IMG/VR virus record: IMGVR_UViG_3300018481_000073
Span: 1 to 24,782 of that record
Length of the DNA stretch: 24,782 bases
Origin: a virus
Strand: one strand, 5' to 3'
Shown here: piece after piece, positions 779-22,662 of the stretch
How positions within the stretch are numbered: the stretch's first letter is position 1
Layout of the letters: every line of letters starts with the position of its first letter
Notes under the pieces: model-generated
The model's database searches: none
What the model was told of the DNA's origin: nothing
The model's input: the letters and a program-made list of their open reading frames with translations, nothing else
Position numbers and translations under genes: made by a program

Positions 779-1573
779 TCAGAAAGTCGCAAGGGCGATG
801 CGCCGCCAGCTGTTCGCGGTGACGCAGACGTAGAAGTAGGTGCTGTCCCAGGCGATCTGGCCCTGAGCCCCTACAGCGGATGAGGATGCGGGAGGATACG
901 ACGCCATCTGCACCCTCCCCGGAATCACGACCGTCTCAGATGACGTGCCGAGCTTGATCTGGTTGTCGGCTGACGTGAACGCATAGGTTCCGATTGCCAC
1001 GCTGGCGTCATGGTCCGCGACCGCAGACCGGCCGAGCGCGACCGACCGGAGCCCATATGCAGCCGACAGGTAGCCGATCGACATCGACTCCTCACCCGCG
1101 GCATCCGAGCTATACCCGATGGCGATGGCGCCGTCTTCCTCCGCTTCCGACACCCTGCCGATCGCGATCCCATCCGACAGAGACGCCGTCGCATAGTTGC
1201 CAATCGCGATCGCGTAGTAGTCGTTCGCGACCGCGGTGTCGCCGAGGGCGATAGCAGCGTCTCCTACCGCCTCCGTGTCGACACCGAGAGCGATGGAGTT
1301 CTCCCCGGTGCCCGGGTGCAGGCTGTCCCCGCCACCGCCACCCCCGGTGGCGGTGATGGTGACGGTGTTGCCGGCGTCGTTGACGCTGATGGTGACGTTC
1401 GATCCGGCGACCAGCGTCGCGCCGATGATGTCCCGGACCTCTTCGATGGTCAGCCCACCCGGAGGCCCCACCGCACCAGGCTTCGACCGCCTGCGCTCGA
1501 GCGCGACGAGCCGACGCTGTGTGCCGCTGATGAAGGAGGCCAGGTCGCGGGGGACATCCCCCACGCCGGTCAC
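779..1573 (-). CDS. Tail fibre/minor tail protein with YadA-head-like beta-roll
   Basis: Predicted 264-aa virion fibre. The N-terminal part (1-35) has an Arg-rich helix (QRRLVALERRR) like the coiled-coil anchors of minor tail proteins. A beta-rich linker ending in a run of six Gly follows. Residues about 93-206 carry eight repeats of the S/A-h-A-h-G type (SIALG, AIALG, AIAIG, SMSIG and so on) whose Gly recurs every 14 residues exactly. This is the signature of the YadA/Hia trimeric autotransporter head, a left-handed trimeric beta-roll. The C-terminus (GQIAWDSTYFYVCV) is a common end of phage fibres. The GTG at 1573 overlaps the upstream TGA (GTGA) and has GAAGG 7 nt before it, so I prefer it to the more distal GTG at 1606. 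A role as a trimeric receptor-binding fibre at the tail tip is inferred. Confidence 0.8.
   Translation of the reverse strand: MTGVGDVPRDLASFISGTQRRLVALERRRSKPGAVGPPGGLTIEEVRDIIGATLVAGSNVTISVNDAGNTVTITATGGGGGGDSLHPGTGENSIALGVDTEAVGDAAIALGDTAVANDYYAIAIGNYATASLSDGIAIGRVSEAEEDGAIAIGYSSDAAGEESMSIGYLSAAYGLRSVALGRSAVADHDASVAIGTYAFTSADNQIKLGTSSETVVIPGRVQMASYPPASSSAVGAQGQIAWDSTYFYVCVTANSWRRIALATF
956..1297 (-). repeat. Eight 14-residue (42-nt) YadA-head-type repeats
   Basis: Within the fibre gene, the motif hydrophobic-Ala-hydrophobic-Gly recurs with Gly at every 14th codon, eight times, without insertions. Each unit has the form x-I-A-I-G followed by about nine polar or small residues, usually with an Ala four to five positions after the Gly. 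The repetition is clear in protein but diverged in DNA, which suggests old duplication under structural constraint. Confidence 0.85.
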
Positions 1574-2001
1574 GCCAGCGCCTTCCCCACCAGTACGCCC
1601 GCCCACACGCCGCCAGCCTGGATCAGCGTGATCCAGTCGATGGAGGCAGCGGGTGTCGACAGCACTGGGCTGATGTTGCCCGGGAACTTCACGACCGCGG
1701 GCCAGGTGATGGTCCGGGATCCCGCGTCACCCTGCACGATAAGCAGGTCGATACGTGCCGTGTTCACCGGCAGGGTCACGGTGGTCGCGTTCGCTTCCAG
1801 GTTCACCAGCGCAGATGCGTAGCCGCCGAGCACCGACAGGTCGAGCGAGCCGACCGTGGTGTGCTCGATGATCGTCTGCGCGGGCGCGATCGAGATGGTG
1901 TACGGAGACGAGAGGTTGCCCGTCCCGCTGATGTCGAGGCCGTTGCCAGCCACGATTTGGCAGGAGCACGAAGACCCTGCACATGAGCACCTTCCGGGCA
2001 T
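1570..2001 (-). CDS. Small minor tail protein with N-terminal CxCx4CxC cluster
   Basis: Predicted 143-aa beta-rich virion protein. It opens with a compact Cys cluster, C5-S-C7-x4-C12-S-C14, then 'IVAGNGLDISGTGN', a segment often found near the start of actinophage fibre and minor tail proteins. The rest alternates hydrophobic and polar residues without helices or membrane segments, consistent with a beta-sandwich or fibre-base domain. The ATG at 2001 lies 3 nt after the hub gene stop and has GAGGAG 6-7 nt upstream. Its place between the hub-like protein and the YadA-like fibre suggests a tail-tip structural or fibre-attachment role (inference). The same Cys spacing recurs in the neck adaptor at 13922-14761. 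Confidence 0.65.
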   Translation of the reverse strand: MPGRCSCAGSSCSCQIVAGNGLDISGTGNLSSPYTISIAPAQTIIEHTTVGSLDLSVLGGYASALVNLEANATTVTLPVNTARIDLLIVQGDAGSRTITWPAVVKFPGNISPVLSTPAASIDWITLIQAGGVWAGVLVGKALA

Positions 2002-16859: not shown

Positions 16860-18269
16860 TCAGGCCAGTCCCGCCTTCTGAGCATGCACCAGGATGCGCG
16901 CAGCGGACAGTGGTGTGGGATACCAGGCGACCTCGTCGATAATGCCGTCGAAGCCGAAGAACCGCCCGGTCGAGCCCGCGACGGACGCACCAGCCATGAA
17001 CACGCGCGCAGGTCCGTACGGAGCGGACATGGGAGCTCCGCTGACTCCGTCCAGCGTGCCGTTGATATACAGCCGCACGTCGGAGGCATTCGCCACCATT
17101 GCTACATGATTACCGCTCGTCATGCTGAGAGCGTTCGTTGATGAGACGAGACCCGTTGCGGCGTTGAGGCAATGGAGCAGCCCATTCGACGTGTACAGGT
17201 TCCATCCACGGTTGAGTGAGTTTCCATCGCAGGTGACGATGGCGTGATAGCCGATGTTGTCATCGGGATTCACGATCGCTTCCACCGTGAATGTCATGTC
17301 GTCCATCCAGGACTCCCAGGGGCGCTCGACGCATGAGGCCAAGAAGTCGACAGCAGTATCGGCATCGCCCGCCACAAGCCCCGCCACGCTTGAGACCGTG
17401 CCCGAGTACAGATTGAACGATCCGGTGCGCCCGTTGCCGGATGCGTCCGCAGCTACCGTGAAGTTCGTGGGGGCAGCCTCGCCGAGCCGCCACCACAGTC
17501 CGGGGGCGTCGGCCATCACCTCTTCTGCGTAGCTGGTCACCGGCGGCGGGTCCGGCTCTGCGCCCAACTGCGGAGTGCGCACCCCGGTGCCGAGCACCGG
17601 GGTGACCGGCTTCGCGCCGAGCGCGAGCGACCAGTACGCGGCAGGTGGCGGGATGAGATCGAAAGCCGCCATGACATAGGACGAATCGGAAGCCGTCGCG
17701 CCGGTCCAGCTAGAGGTTGTCGCCTCCGTACCCGATCCTGTGTAGTTCCGACCCGTTGCGATCTGCCGGAAGAGGGTTCCTGTTGGGCGGGTCAAGTCTT
17801 CGAAGCCATTGGTGAACGACCTCGGCGCGCCTGTGCCACCTGTGCCGAACGTCTGCACGGCAAGATTCACGCCGTCGCCAGCCGGGGTCGTGGTGAGACT
17901 CATCGCCAGGCTGGTGATGCCCGACGCGGGCGTCCCTGTACCACTGCCCAGCTTCGTCGCAGACACGTAGCCGGAGAAGGCGAGCAGCACGACCTCGATA
18001 TAGGTCGGCGAGGAGATGGTGACGCTGTTGATCGAACCGTCGGCCTGCCGCGCCCAGATGTAGGAACGTGACCCACTGCTCACGGAGGACGCGGACGCTG
18101 CCAGTGTCCAGCCCGTCAATGTGTTGGGCACAGAGTTGCCGGAGAACAGCACAACGAGCAGGTGTGTGCTGTCCAGCGGTGTCGTCTCGTCGAAGGTGAC
18201 AGTGAGCGTGGTGGTAGACGGCGGCGGCATGATGCCACGCTTCACCCGCACCAGCCCCGCGATCGTCAT
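16860..18269 (-). CDS. Tail appendage protein with C-terminal LamG/concanavalin-like lectin domain
   Basis: Predicted 469-aa protein in two parts. Residues about 15-210 are a beta-sandwich of the kind seen in phage appendages ('LLVVLFSGNSVPNTLTGWTL', 'VVLLAFSGY', 'SYVMAAFDLIPP'). After a Pro-rich hinge (PDPPPV), residues about 245-469 read 'APGLWWRLGEAAP', 'ADASGNGRTGSF', 'TVEAIVNPDD', 'VRLYINGTLDG' and 'GFDGIIDEVAWYPTPLSAARI'. These are the classic strand motifs of LamG/concanavalin A-like lectin domains. A glycan-binding receptor role on the tail is inferred. Its ATG overlaps the upstream stop as ATGA, and no strong Shine-Dalgarno is seen, so translation is probably coupled. Confidence 0.8.
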   Translation of the reverse strand: MTIAGLVRVKRGIMPPPSTTTLTVTFDETTPLDSTHLLVVLFSGNSVPNTLTGWTLAASASSVSSGSRSYIWARQADGSINSVTISSPTYIEVVLLAFSGYVSATKLGSGTGTPASGITSLAMSLTTTPAGDGVNLAVQTFGTGGTGAPRSFTNGFEDLTRPTGTLFRQIATGRNYTGSGTEATTSSWTGATASDSSYVMAAFDLIPPPAAYWSLALGAKPVTPVLGTGVRTPQLGAEPDPPPVTSYAEEVMADAPGLWWRLGEAAPTNFTVAADASGNGRTGSFNLYSGTVSSVAGLVAGDADTAVDFLASCVERPWESWMDDMTFTVEAIVNPDDNIGYHAIVTCDGNSLNRGWNLYTSNGLLHCLNAATGLVSSTNALSMTSGNHVAMVANASDVRLYINGTLDGVSGAPMSAPYGPARVFMAGASVAGSTGRFFGFDGIIDEVAWYPTPLSAARILVHAQKAGLA

Positions 18270-18715
18270 AGCGTTTCGTCGATGATGTACAGCGTCGTCG
18301 CAACCTTGGGGGTCAGTGCGGTGTACGCGGTGCGGGTGATCGGCTCGAGCCGCTCCACACCGGGTCCGAAGATCTGCGCCAGGAACGCATCCAGCACCCC
18401 GGCGAGGGTGGCGGCGGTGATGGCACGAGTGCCGTCGAGGCCAGCCTCGGCCTCGACGGGGGTGGCGAGCTCGAGGATGCCCTTCTCTGTCTCTGAGGCA
18501 TCCGGCACCACGACCGGCCCACCGCCGAGCTCGAGCGCAGTCACCCGGCTGTCGAGGTCGGCCGTGGTCGCCTCGACGTCATCGGACCACAGGTAGAACG
18601 TCTCGTCCCACGGGTTCTGCCCAGGGAACGGCAGCGGGTGCGTGATCGCGGCAGGCTCGACGATCGCGATGAACGCCTCGTTGGTCTCGTGCCCGATGGC
18701 GGGGAAGTTCGGCAT
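18266..18715 (-). CDS. Tail fibre protein with Stf/T7-type fibre repeat
   Basis: Predicted 149-aa fibre. The N-terminus (MPNFPAIG...) contains 'PLPFPGQNPWDETFYLWS' at 27-44, shared with the protein at 21121-21627. A short coiled-coil-like stretch (VEATTADLDSRVTALEL) follows. Residues 72-111 ('ASETEKGILELATPVEAEAG', then 'TRAITAATLAGVLDAF') match the repeat of side-tail and T7-type fibres. The C-terminal 'YTALTPKVATTLYII' is a common fibre end. The ATG at 18715 lies 1 nt after the preceding stop with AGGAGA upstream, which rules out the longer in-frame reading starting at 18913. It is probably a trimeric fibre or a fibre base. Confidence 0.75.
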   Translation of the reverse strand: MPNFPAIGHETNEAFIAIVEPAAITHPLPFPGQNPWDETFYLWSDDVEATTADLDSRVTALELGGGPVVVPDASETEKGILELATPVEAEAGLDGTRAITAATLAGVLDAFLAQIFGPGVERLEPITRTAYTALTPKVATTLYIIDETL

Positions 18716-18716
18716 G

Positions 18717-18968
18717 TCAGTCTCCTGGGTTGAGCCAACTGGGCGGCCAGATGACACCCTCGGTGGGGAAGCCGGGGTAGGGCAGCACCTCTGACTGCTG
18801 GGTTCCGGCGATCGAGTAACCGGCTGCGACGCCCATGATGGCGGCACGTGGGTGCATGTACGCCACCACCGGCGATGCCACCGGCACCATGCCGGGTCGA
18901 TAGCTGCCCGCATCCACCGCCCACGCGGTGGCGCGGGGGTGGGTGTACGCGGTGCCGCGGTCGGCCAT
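18717..18968 (-). CDS. Small virion protein with internal duplication (paralogue of 19918-20184)
   Basis: Predicted 83-aa protein. Two segments repeat within it: 'AYTHPRATAWAVDAGSY' (about 7-23) and 'AYMHPRAAIMGVAAGYS' (about 37-53). The C-terminal part, 'YSIAGTQQ' followed by 'PTEGVIWPP', matches the C-terminal part of the 88-aa protein at 19918-20184 ('YALAGTVQ', 'LPVGVIWAP'). The ATG at 18968 shares one base with the TAA of the 317-aa gene (TAATG), so the two are probably translationally coupled. The next fibre gene begins 1 nt after its stop. I do not recognise a family. The pairing of a large and a small protein occurs twice in this block, which suggests partners in one appendage. Confidence 0.7.
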   Translation of the reverse strand: MADRGTAYTHPRATAWAVDAGSYRPGMVPVASPVVAYMHPRAAIMGVAAGYSIAGTQQSEVLPYPGFPTEGVIWPPSWLNPGD

Positions 18969-19921
18969 TATGCAGCCCGGAACGTCACGGCAAGGGGCCC
19001 GGGTGATGCGCTGTAGGTGGCCAGTACCCACGGGTTGCCATCAATTGTCATGGTGTCACCACGCACCACCGTGGCTTGGGCCGCGATGAACGCAATATCG
19101 TACAGCTGCCCCCAGGTGCCGAAATAGGGCGAAGTGGCGATGGGCACCAGCGTCACTGGTATTGCCTCAAACCGGCCAGTAATGGGGGTGGCACCGGCCG
19201 GCACCGCGCCGGTGCGCATTTCATCAAAGTTCAGGGAGCCGTTGAGGGTCAACACCATGTCGGACGTGCCACCGGTGGCGGATGAAATACGCGGGTAACG
19301 GGTCATTATTGCGGCCGCGGTGCCACCCGAGGTGCTTGAGTTTGCATCCGGGCCCACGGTGGCGATGATGAGCGGGAAGTTGGCTGCGCCGGCAAATGCG
19401 GCCGATGGTGCATAGGACTCGTACAGCCCCACATAGAACACACTCGAGGGAATGAGTGATGTCAGCGCGATGACCCGGTTCCGGGTGATCGAGATCCAGT
19501 ACCCGAACGATGTGGTGGCGGTGGTGATTTTGTTGAACCCGGTGTGCCCCGCCACGGGTGCCCAGTTGGTTTCGAGCGCATACCCCGTGGCACCGTAACG
19601 GGAAAACGTGGTGGCATCCAACGTGATGCTCGAAGTGACATAGCTGGGGCCGCGGTAGCCGAGGTCGGTGGCCGAGTCAAAGAACTCGAACGGGAGCAGC
19701 CAGATGTGGCCGGTGTTGCCGGTGGCAATAGCAACGTCCAGGTACCAGTCCAACCCGGCCACGTTGCCCGCCGCGGCCGACTTCCACACCCGGTGGGTGC
19801 GACCACCGATCACCACCGTGTCATGCAGCGTCCAGCCGGTGGCGGTGAGCTCGGCCGCGATGAGCGTATAGAGGTCACCGGCCGGTGTGGCGGTGGTGAG
19901 GGTGCCGGTGATGTAGCTCAT
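18968..19921 (-). CDS. Tail-associated virion protein, duplicated paralogue A
   Basis: Predicted 317-aa protein. It is clearly homologous to the 312-aa protein at 20186-21124 along most of its length. The starts are MSYITGTLTTATPAGDLYTL and MTYITGTVTNANPGVTLYNL. Matching cores are 'AAAGNVAGLDWYLDV' against 'AAAGNAIGKDWYLDV', 'FFDSATDLGYR' against 'FFDPATDLAYR', 'SFGYWISITRNRVIAL' against 'AFGYWITLTRDRVIVL', and 'TVVRGDT' against 'TVARGDT'. It is beta-rich and resembles a family of phage virion proteins with a 'GWTL..D' start, seen by eye only. The ATGA overlap with the small gene upstream and AGGAGA before the ATG fix the start. Role unknown; position suggests a fibre or baseplate appendage. 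Confidence 0.75.
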   Translation of the reverse strand: MSYITGTLTTATPAGDLYTLIAAELTATGWTLHDTVVIGGRTHRVWKSAAAGNVAGLDWYLDVAIATGNTGHIWLLPFEFFDSATDLGYRGPSYVTSSITLDATTFSRYGATGYALETNWAPVAGHTGFNKITTATTSFGYWISITRNRVIALTSLIPSSVFYVGLYESYAPSAAFAGAANFPLIIATVGPDANSSTSGGTAAAIMTRYPRISSATGGTSDMVLTLNGSLNFDEMRTGAVPAGATPITGRFEAIPVTLVPIATSPYFGTWGQLYDIAFIAAQATVVRGDTMTIDGNPWVLATYSASPGPLAVTFRAA

Positions 19922-20184
19922 GGTCTCTCCTGACCGAATCGGCCGCCGGGCGCCCAGATGACGCCGACGGGAAGCTCTGGGCAGTCCGGGCAGGGCGCTG
20001 GCTGCACGGTGCCGGCCAGCGCGTAGCTGCCGAGCTCGAACGGGGCCAACTCACCGACGTTAAAATCGAGGATGGTGAACGTGCCCCACTGCAGCGGCGC
20101 GTTGAAGGCGTACCCCGTCATCTCGAACGGGGCCAACTCGCCCGTGGTGATATCGAGGAGGGTGAACGTGCCGAGGGCTACCAC
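19918..20184 (-). CDS. Small virion protein with internal tandem duplication (paralogue of 18717-18968)
   Basis: Predicted 88-aa protein beginning at a GTG (20184) placed 1 nt after the TGA of the 312-aa gene. Upstream ATG-started readings would lie inside that gene and are not needed. Two near-identical segments are visible, 'GTFTLLDITTGELAPFEMTGY' shortened to its first 20 residues (GTFTLLDITTGELAPFEMTG, about 5-24) and 'GTFTILDFNVGELAPFELGS' (about 34-53). They are followed by 'CPDCPELPVGVIWAPGG'. The GVIW ending is shared with the protein at 18717-18968. The stop overlaps the next start as ATGA. Family unknown. The repeats may form a small two-lobed beta domain (inference). Confidence 0.7.
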   Translation of the reverse strand: MVALGTFTLLDITTGELAPFEMTGYAFNAPLQWGTFTILDFNVGELAPFELGSYALAGTVQPAPCPDCPELPVGVIWAPGGRFGQERP

Positions 20185-20185
20185 G

Positions 20186-21124
20186 TCACACCGCCTTGAA
20201 CAGCAGCAACCCGGATGTGGTACCGGTGGCGAACACCCAGGTGTTGGTGCCATCGGATGCGGTATCACCACGCGCCACGGTGGCGTCACCCGTCATCGTG
20301 GCAAGGTCACGGAACACACCCAGATATGCCCGCGGAAACACCGAGCCGCCCACGGTGCTCAGCGGTATTGCTGCGGCCAACCTCGGGCCGGCCACGGTGA
20401 CGTCGGCCGGAAAACCGGGCGGTTCAATCGTGGTGGAAACCCCCACGATGGCGGATGTGGCCTTGAGGTTCCATGCCACGGTGGATGCGGTGGTGAACTT
20501 GGGCAACCGGGTGATACCGACGGCGAGTGAACCCAACGGGCCGCTGTTATTGAACTTGCCCGCAAACAGCGGGTACACATCGGCACCGGCCGCGGCCGCA
20601 TGGCCGGCCGAGGGCGCATACGCGCCGGCATACAGCATGTGTGCCGGGTTGGAGGACAGCAGCACGATGACCCGGTCACGGGTCAGCGTGATCCAGTAGC
20701 CGAATGCCGACGACGGCAGATCAAGGTTGCCGTTTGAGTTGGAATGCGCGGCGGCCGTCGCGACATATCCCCATGTGCCCTCGAGCGCCAACCCGGTAGC
20801 ACCAAACGGTGAGTAATAGGTGGCATCCGATGAGCGAGAACCGGAATATGCAGCCCGGTATGCAAGGTCGGTGGCCGGGTCGAAGAACTCCATCACACCG
20901 AGGAACAGCGTGCCGGCCCCGGTGGTGGTGTACACCACGTCGAGGTACCAGTCCTTGCCGATCGCGTTGCCTGCAGCTGCGGACAGCCAGATCTTGTGGG
21001 TGCGAGTAGAGACCACCACGGTGTCGGTGAGGGTGAAGCCGAGCGCGGTGAGCTCGGTCGCCATCAGGTTGTACAGCGTGACACCCGGGTTGGCGTTGGT
21101 GACGGTGCCGGTGATGTAGGTCAT
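20186..21124 (-). CDS. Tail-associated virion protein, duplicated paralogue B
   Basis: Predicted 312-aa protein, the upstream member of a tandem pair with the gene at 18968-19921. Features shared by both: MTYITGT start, a 'ELTALGFTLTDTVV' strand-turn, 'WYLDVVYTT', 'FFDPATDLAYRA', 'GYWITLTRDRVIVLLSSNPA', and a C-terminal 'VARGDT...TNTWVFATG'. The centre and the loops differ, as expected for surface-exposed diverging paralogues. The ATG at 21124 overlaps the preceding TGA (ATGA) with GGAG 5 nt upstream; longer in-frame readings start inside the neighbouring gene and are rejected. The sequence is beta-rich, without signal peptide or membrane segment. Exact role unknown; a tail appendage component is inferred from neighbours. 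Confidence 0.75.
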   Translation of the reverse strand: MTYITGTVTNANPGVTLYNLMATELTALGFTLTDTVVVSTRTHKIWLSAAAGNAIGKDWYLDVVYTTTGAGTLFLGVMEFFDPATDLAYRAAYSGSRSSDATYYSPFGATGLALEGTWGYVATAAAHSNSNGNLDLPSSAFGYWITLTRDRVIVLLSSNPAHMLYAGAYAPSAGHAAAAGADVYPLFAGKFNNSGPLGSLAVGITRLPKFTTASTVAWNLKATSAIVGVSTTIEPPGFPADVTVAGPRLAAAIPLSTVGGSVFPRAYLGVFRDLATMTGDATVARGDTASDGTNTWVFATGTTSGLLLFKAV

Positions 21125-21627
21125 GGGGTCTCCAAGGGCAGGTAGGTGAAGGTGACCACGACCATGCCGAGCGCACCGGAGTGATTCGTGACGGCGATCG
21201 GGACCATGTTCCCACTGTTCACGAAGCCACGTCCGCTGGTGGTGACGGTGAAGGTGCCGGGGGTGGTGAACAGCGCTTCCAGGAAGCAGCCATGCTCCGG
21301 CCCGGTCGCGGTGGGCAGCGTACCCGGCGGCCGTGCAGCGTCGGCGTTGCGCTGCGCGGCCGTCCGGTACAACCGCACCCTGGCAGGAATGTCCACCGTG
21401 ACGTCGAAGATGTCGAACGACTTCGACATCGTGACGGTCGCGAGCTCGATGCCGCCGTGCGGCAGCGAGCCGGTGATGTGCGTTGCTGTGGTGCGCGCGA
21501 GGGTGGCGCCGCCCGGCTCCTCCGCTTCGAGTGCGTGGATCGAGGTCTCGACATCCCCAGACCAGCCGCGGAACGTCTCGTCCCACGGGTTCTGACCGGT
21601 GAACGGGAGCGGGTCGTTGACCGGCAT
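21121..21627 (-). CDS. Tail appendage protein with GQNPWDETF N-terminal module
   Basis: Predicted 168-aa protein. Residues 6-26 (PLPFTGQNPWDETFRGWSGD) share a module with the fibre at 18266-18715, which suggests that both attach to the same partner. After 'HALEAEEPGG' a beta domain follows with 'SKSFDIFDVTVDIPARVRLY', 'TAAQRNADAARPPGT', 'HGCFLEALF' and a C-terminal strand pair ending 'VVVTFTYLPLE'. The 'PARVRLY..AAQR.ADA.RP.GT' pattern is common in appendage proteins of actinophages and looks like a small receptor-binding or capping domain. The ATG at 21627 has AGGAG 7 nt upstream. It is the first gene after a 102-nt gap with strong hairpins. Confidence 0.7.
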   Translation of the reverse strand: MPVNDPLPFTGQNPWDETFRGWSGDVETSIHALEAEEPGGATLARTTATHITGSLPHGGIELATVTMSKSFDIFDVTVDIPARVRLYRTAAQRNADAARPPGTLPTATGPEHGCFLEALFTTPGTFTVTTSGRGFVNSGNMVPIAVTNHSGALGMVVVTFTYLPLETP

Positions 21628-21729: not shown

Positions 21730-22662
21730 TCAGGGGCCCGTCACCGTGACGCTGGTCTGGACCCAGACCCCATCCTGCGACGCCTTGACGGTGTAGGTGC
21801 CGGCCGCCTCGTAGGTGTGCGAGGCGTCACCGGGGGCATCGACGATGTCCCAGCTGCCGTCGCCGAAGTCGTACCAGACCGGGCCGGTGGCGACCGGCGC
21901 GACGTCGAAGTCGACGGTCAGGCCGGTGGCGACGCCGGTGACCGACGTGAGCGACGGGAGCGAGGCATCCAGCAGCGGGCGTGCGCCACAGGCAGCCTCG
22001 GGCGGTGCGACATCCGTGAGGATGGTGCGCATCGCGACCGTGGTGCCGATGGGCTGAAGCATCGGGCCAGGCAGACCGCCGCCGCCGATCTGGATGTCGT
22101 TGTAGGGACCGACGCCCCACGAGTTGCCGTCGCGCGTGTTGGCGCCGGTGATCGTGAAGGTGACCGCGTCGTTCTCGACCGTGAAGTCGCCGACGATGCC
22201 GCCGCGCAGGAACGGGAGGAGCAGGTAGCCGAAGCTGCCCTGCGATCCCTCGGTGGCGCAGGCATCGCCTGCGGCGCTGCCCGCCCACAGTTCGAGCGCG
22301 AAGCCCGAGCCGGAGAGCGAGGTCGCCGTGTCGATGTCGAAGCCGATGACGTTGCCGAACGAGTCGGTGACGACGGGCTGGCCGGTGACGAGCGCGAAGA
22401 GGTCGGGGTCGACCTCACAGAACGCGATCTCGACGCCGTAGCCGGTGAGGCTGGTTTCCGACGGCTCGAACACGCACGTCTCGCCGGCGGCGTTCGTCAC
22501 GTTGATCTCGTCGGAGTCCGTGGTGTTCGCGGTGAACGCGACACTGATGAACCCCTTCGAGACGACGGACGATGCGTCGCCGTAGACCGGCCGACCGCAG
22601 CCGTCCAGCCGCGTGAGCCGGATACGCCGGCCCTTGACCAGCGAAAGGCACTTGGTGGGCAT
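21730..22662 (-). CDS. Major tail (tube) protein with C-terminal PKD/Ig-like domain
   Basis: Predicted 310-aa tube subunit. Residues 1-222 match the tube type known from actinophages: 'RLTRLDGCGRPVYGD', 'SKGFISVAFTANT', 'GYGVEIAFCEVDPDLFALVT', 'GSFGYLLLPFLRGGIVGDFT' and 'AVTFTITGANTRDGNSWGVG'. Residues about 233-308 form a PKD/Ig-like domain, shown by 'WYDFGDGSWD' and 'SHTYEAAGTYTVKAS'. Such domains sit on the outside of phage tubes and are thought to aid surface adsorption. The ATG at 22662 has AAGGAG 6 nt upstream. The position is odd: it comes before the fibre block and before the neck genes instead of between neck and chaperones. No other tube candidate exists in the window. Confidence 0.85.
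   Translation of the reverse strand: MPTKCLSLVKGRRIRLTRLDGCGRPVYGDASSVVSKGFISVAFTANTTDSDEINVTNAAGETCVFEPSETSLTGYGVEIAFCEVDPDLFALVTGQPVVTDSFGNVIGFDIDTATSLSGSGFALELWAGSAAGDACATEGSQGSFGYLLLPFLRGGIVGDFTVENDAVTFTITGANTRDGNSWGVGPYNDIQIGGGGLPGPMLQPIGTTVAMRTILTDVAPPEAACGARPLLDASLPSLTSVTGVATGLTVDFDVAPVATGPVWYDFGDGSWDIVDAPGDASHTYEAAGTYTVKASQDGVWVQTSVTVTGP

Follow-up and report, generated by a model that had tools for sequence, protein, structure and literature searches.

We analyzed a gene cassette that probably encodes virion appendages in the complete record of an uncultivated virus, IMGVR_UViG_3300018481_000073 (24,782 bases, hereafter the window). Read along the minus strand, a short fiber protein (F1) is followed by a large protein (L312) and its small partner (S88), by a second such pair (L317 and S83) and by another short fiber protein (F2; Table 1), the genes overlapping or abutting with spacings of -4 to +2 nucleotides (nt). 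One observation goes beyond the original prediction for this locus, which had been made from the sequence of the window alone: across related loci, the C-terminus of the small protein correlates with the fiber and not with the large protein.

The original prediction described a repeated appendage unit, in which a tandemly duplicated large/small pair is bracketed by two fiber proteins with a common anchor. We found the 312- and 317-amino acid (aa) proteins to be paralogous over their full length, as proposed, with ~43% identity (blastp E 4e-55) and 73% DNA identity across 197 nt at the 5' ends of the genes, and a small gene comes directly after each. The proposed C-terminal pattern of the small proteins was also recovered: Y-[AS]-[LI]-AGT...GVIW-x-P is the only part that S88 and S83 have in common, and the best local score was reached in 1 of 2000 shuffles. 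An internal duplication had been claimed for both; it is strong in S88 (0/2000 shuffles) and weaker in S83 (17/2000). The two flanking proteins do share the GQNPWDETF module, with 58% identity across the 33 residues around it (E 7e-12) and nothing convincing beyond. The bracketing by equivalent fibers did not hold, however, as the C-terminal beta domain, the proposed socket, is present in F1 only and F2 is thus not its equivalent.

Table 1. Parts of the cassette and other annotated features of the window
Feature	Positions	Strand	Description
F1, 168-aa short fiber	21121-21627	minus	N-terminal GQNPWDETF anchor module and C-terminal beta domain
F1 anchor module GQNPWDETF	21571-21597	minus	
F1 C-terminal beta domain, ~125 aa			phrog_9627 / phrog_15343; proposed socket
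L312, 312-aa large protein	20186-21124	minus	JBD30 gp47/gp48-type fold; proposed adhesin
S88, 88-aa small partner of L312	19918-20184	minus	GTG start
S88 internal repeat	20095-20175 / 20008-20088		
S88 class I C-terminal tag GVIWAP	19948-19965		
L317, 317-aa large protein	18968-19921	minus	AlphaFold model matches 8rk3_K
S83, 83-aa small partner of L317	18717-18968	minus	Weak internal repeat
S83 class I C-terminal tag PTEGVIWPP	18741-18767		
F2, 149-aa short fiber	18266-18715	minus	Anchor at 18596-18622
F2 C-terminal end			Weak Phage_tail_C-like segment; no F1-type domain
Major capsid protein		minus	phrog_777
phrog_779 protein		minus	Function unassigned
121-aa protein		minus	Structural gene
Major tail protein	21730-22662	minus	phrog_792; C-terminal PKD domain
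LamG-domain protein	16860-18269		After the cassette
Collagen-like protein, 462 aa	15461-16849		After the LamG-domain protein
Presumed neck genes, presumed tape-measure gene, tail genes		minus	Tape-measure protein of 1603 aa
275-aa protein	779-1606		SIALG-type repeats
Lysin-like gene	43-792	minus	

Gene coupling and the fold of the large proteins

Profile-guided scans of viral contigs and a later motif search gave 36 distinct large homologues. In all 36, a small open reading frame (ORF) of ~48-100 aa starts -3 to +7 nt from the stop codon, while such an ORF follows 31 of 201 other genes (15%) in the first set of loci (binomial p 6e-30). Among the best-sampled small genes, those of class II defined below, the ratio of nonsynonymous to synonymous polymorphism (pN/pS) was 0.35 over 91 pairs, indicating purifying selection. 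The original prediction had suggested an obligate two-component structure; a large homologue without a small partner was sought and none was found (0/36), and the large and small genes form an obligate two-gene unit. Searches of PHROGs (E up to 10) and Pfam (E up to 1) gave no match beyond chance for the small proteins, including none to a chaperone family of the Tfa/gp38 type. On a 116-kb contig, a divergent large protein is followed by two consecutive 76-aa ORFs (L055:6937-7407), which are placed between two collagen-type tail fibers.

Of the proposed tandem duplication, the adjacency of the paralogous pairs stands, but a recent event is ruled out by the phylogenetic tree. L312 groups with one copy from the related contig L005 (support 100/99), whose capsid protein is 83% identical to that of the window, and L317 branches separately; the copies are therefore old. 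Two copies of the large gene were found in the window and in L005, and a single copy in the other large-bearing loci examined. In L005, the pair resembling L312 and S88 follows F2, not F1, and because it occupies this other position, the large/small pair travels as a unit. We found no match to L317, L312 and the large proteins of L010, L007, L055 and L053 in tblastn searches of cultured phages, and two scans across bacterial and archaeal genomes gave no large-family match, which leaves uncultivated viral contigs as the only source of the family in this analysis so far.

PHROG and Pfam contained no family for L312 and L317, and sequence searches of the Protein Data Bank with the large-protein and F1 profiles returned nothing. 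We modeled L317 with AlphaFold using 26 homologues (predicted template modeling score 0.85, mean predicted local distance difference test [pLDDT] 79) and found the model to match chains K and G of the JBD30 baseplate structure 8rk3 (Foldseek E 1e-6 and 2.7e-6, probability 1.00). On chain K, model residues 2-317 were superposed on chain residues 2-318 (VIA Z 17.1, root-mean-square deviation 3.9, 246 residues), and the next unrelated row had a Z of 5.4. With lengths of 317 and 305, chains K and G agree with gp47 (318 aa) and with gp48 (307 aa). The same relationship was recovered from sequence profiles: hhalign aligned the large family with the gp47/gp48 alignment from residue 1 to ~300 (probability 97, E 7.6e-11, 266 columns), with a probability of at most 0.4 in the shuffled and reversed controls. 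L312 and L317 gave no direct hidden Markov model (HMM) match to phrog_687, to which gp47 and gp48 belong; the divergent member L056 did (3e-6). The large protein is thus a remote homologue of JBD30 gp47/gp48, and the fold match to these tail-fiber arm proteins supports the predicted appendage role.

In JBD30, gp47 and gp48 have similar folds, three gp47-gp48 heterodimers make up each of the three arms clasping the type IV pilus, and the 74 N-terminal residues of the distal tail protein gp49, whose gene comes directly after gp48, wrap around the arms (EMBO J 2024, PMC11445458). The likeness to the proteins studied here covers the full-length fold, the co-linear profile homology, the length of ~310 aa and, in the window and L005, the presence of two divergent paralogues, and it extends the pilus-binding arm fold to phages probably infecting actinobacteria. 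There are also differences, the probable actinobacterial host of the window phage among them. In the window every large gene comes with a small partner of its own, whereas in the proteobacterial relatives of JBD30 the two genes follow the tape measure in tandem and no small gene separates them; the small partner thus characterizes the present family. None of the large genes was found in a JBD30-like position between the genes for the tape measure and the distal tail protein: those of the window lie between the major tail protein and neck genes and those of other loci behind a fiber gene, usually ahead of lysis genes, and the family adjoins collagen-type or F1 fibers rather than the tape-measure gene. 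By analogy, each small protein may correspond, in free-standing form, to the N-terminal part of gp49, as its domain I (residues 2-74) is about as long as a small protein and is encoded directly after gp48; domain I, however, belongs to a 568-aa protein, and the sequences are highly variable.

Small-protein tags and fiber classes

The C-terminal tags of the small proteins fall into three classes, and which of them is present can be predicted from the gene that lies upstream of the large one. The class I tag, G-x-[IL]-W-P, was found with fibers ending in an F1-type beta domain in 11 of 11 cases and the class II tag, KRYLLxGxWVPIQ, with fibers ending in ...GDEWISA in 19 of 19, while the third class is represented by two loci with fibers ending in LRVEKFA. 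These counts take in L090, and the classes were defined on the same loci; the only data that had no part in the definition come from the cyanophages and the motif-first search described below. The tag cannot be predicted from the large protein: the large proteins of L006 and L007 are sisters (support 100/94) and their small partners have similar N-terminal parts, yet the two loci differ in both fiber and tag. The N-terminal parts of the small proteins, in turn, track the similarity of the large proteins (Mantel rho 0.31, p 0.001, with a dense clade pruned). The S88 orthologue in L005, which is behind F2 and not F1, has no tag. The open-access literature that we searched does not mention the tag sequences.

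Tags are also found on proteins unrelated to the small family. In the 2,700-base contig L079 (IMGVR_UViG_3300042923_000422), an unrelated beta-rich protein of ~285 aa stands behind the usual DEWISA-type fiber in place of the large and small pair and has the class II tag VDPKRYLLTGAGWVPIQ at its C-terminus, a natural gene swap in which the tag was kept. In L092, a 217-aa protein behind an F1 fiber has GQLWPRGNW as its own C-terminus.

We then reversed the direction of the search and screened 2.9 million viral contigs, in all frames, for DNA that encodes GQxWP[RS]G. In 22 cases the motif closes an ORF of at least 40 aa, and upstream of 15 of these, at a distance of no more than 2.5 kb, there is an F1 domain, compared with 3 of the 61 other motif matches (p 8e-9). 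Three of the seven exceptions were truncated where the fetched stretch ended and do have an F1 domain in their contig, and the remaining four resemble chance ORFs. What separates F1 from the tag is often a protein not recognizably of the large family, and the middle proteins of the other tag loci gave no convincing match to the large-protein and gp47/gp48 profiles.

Cultured cyanophages have the F1 domain as well, and we identified it in S-SCSM1, Sf-CH1b, S-CREM1, S-H38 and S-CAM1 (HMM E 1e-23 to 1e-29). The domain is followed by proteins ending in or near G-x-[ILMVT]-[WYF]-P-R; the cyanophages differ from the window phage in being mostly myoviruses and in having a protease or another fiber type as the middle protein, not recognizably one of the large family. 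In S-SCSM1 and Sf-CH1b, the F1 fiber and a large protein are followed by small proteins of 80 and 77 aa that end in GQMYPRFNK and GQLYPRGNQ, respectively. In S-CREM1, S-H38 and S-CAM1, a protease or fiber after F1 has the sequence G-H-I-F-P-R, G-V-V-Y-P-R or G-A-T-Y-P-R near its own C-terminus. The proteins with GHIFPR in S-CREM1 (L178:6353-8032) and GVVYPR in S-H38 (L177:6351-8003) are protease-like and lie directly behind the F1 fiber, and the pattern suggests that virion-mounted proteases may use the docking proposed below. The F1 fiber of S-SCSM1 and the next protein are labeled as virion proteins in the GenBank record; the virion proteome of this phage was determined by mass spectrometry (PMC9602691), from which the labels presumably come. 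A candidate cultured example of the complete triple is gp189-gp191 of the Nodularia phage vB_NspS-kac65v161 (L176:5767-7368), consisting of an F1-domain protein, a 264-aa protein and a 61-aa protein without the class I tag. The 264-aa protein is equal in length to A0A482MIJ2, a structural match of the large protein from the same phage.

A proposed adhesin cassette and its alternatives

We consider it fairly probable that the genes form a modular adhesin cassette, in which the large proteins are host-binding fiber proteins and the small proteins are adaptors that dock by their tags on F1. F1 would be held on the virion by its N-terminal GQNPWDETF anchor and would offer its C-terminal beta domain as a socket at the fiber end. 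The tag G-x-[IL]-W-P would be the plug docking on that socket, the N-terminal part of each small protein would be adapted to its own large protein, and L312 and L317 would be exchangeable adhesins; a dedicated small adaptor would supply the tag where the adhesin has none of its own. Two large/small pairs on one F1 would place two different adhesins on one fiber, a mixed arm like that of gp47/gp48. We infer that the tag physically docks on F1 and that the small protein contacts the large one; the adhesin function of the large proteins and the stoichiometry are likewise putative, and the receptor may, by analogy with JBD30, be a pilus or another filament. The strongest evidence is that F1 and tag persist together in distant phages whose middle genes are not homologous.

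The scheme may also be a general one, and here we see the chances as evenly divided: a plug-and-socket code for adhesin swapping, in which a short C-terminal tag mates with the matching C-terminal domain of a fiber, the tag (G-x-[IL]-[WY]-P-R or another class) being located on a dedicated adaptor or on the adhesin itself, and which would span actinophage-type siphoviruses, cyanobacterial myoviruses and other marine phages. Under the proposed rule that tag class equals fiber class, phages would exchange adhesins and keep their fibers. The rule would also provide a hypothesis of function for phrog_9627 and phrog_15343, both PHROG families of unknown function, and for the small ORFs that have no family.

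Several observations weigh against docking adaptors of this kind. A clear tag is missing in some F1-fiber neighborhoods (Nodularia kac65v161, S-CRES2 and S-MbCM7), the large genes do not come right after the tape-measure gene as gp47/gp48 do, and most relatives are single-copy. When the large and small proteins were modeled as one fused chain, by reading through the stop codon between the L005 genes, AlphaFold left the small protein unstructured (pLDDT 26-39), the alignment being shallow, and an interaction within the pair, which the original prediction had named as a check, gained no support from this model. The tag, fiber and large protein are encoded by adjacent genes and their correlation is partly linkage; furthermore, the DEWISA loci are closely related and mostly from two metagenomes. 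With neighbors co-inherited and many loci from the same two sources, the tag/fiber counts overstate independence, and the independent events are far fewer than 30.

The extreme form of the last point is that the three genes are simply co-inherited and that the match reflects linkage and shared ancestry with no contact between the products. The adjacency of the genes and the close relatedness of many loci from the same metagenomes are what this account would expect, but it does not expect F1 and the class I tag to stay joined across non-homologous middle genes in distant phages, nor fiber and tag to change together between the sister large proteins of L006 and L007, and we regard it as quite improbable. 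A small protein that serves the large protein or the fiber as an assembly chaperone, like Tfa or gp38, and is not a stable linker would agree with the lack of a stable fold in the AlphaFold model, and the small size, the tight co-occurrence and the location immediately downstream of a host-binding gene, the classic position of fiber chaperones, fit it as well. We nevertheless find this role unlikely, as the small proteins of the window differ from Tfa/gp38-type partners in their two-part build, with a tag that depends on the fiber type and an N-terminal part that depends on the large protein, no such family was matched in PHROGs or Pfam, and the tag is also the permanent C-terminus of unrelated large proteins. 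The roles could also be turned around, with the small protein as a host-contacting tip adhesin or loop and the large protein as a scaffold. The middle part of the small protein is highly variable and has internal repeats, as is often the case in adhesin tips; the C-terminal tag, however, is its most conserved part, matches the fiber and not the host, and is common to actinophage-type and cyanobacterial phages, which leaves this arrangement very improbable. The adaptor docking by its tag on F1 is the reading that we prefer.

Genome context

The virus is a siphovirus with an actinophage-type capsid. Its capsid protein shares 44% identity with the Microbacterium phage proteins and is also related to those of many other actinophages, and on this kinship the host is probably an actinobacterium. 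The structural genes are on the minus strand, and the appendage genes sit between the major tail protein gene and those presumed to encode the neck, where fiber genes are not usually located. Of the two proteins after the cassette, the collagen-like fiber is 72% conserved in L005, unlike the neighboring LamG protein, which was not found there. The 275-aa protein with SIALG-type repeats adjoins the lysin-like gene and has relatives with YadA-head repeats.

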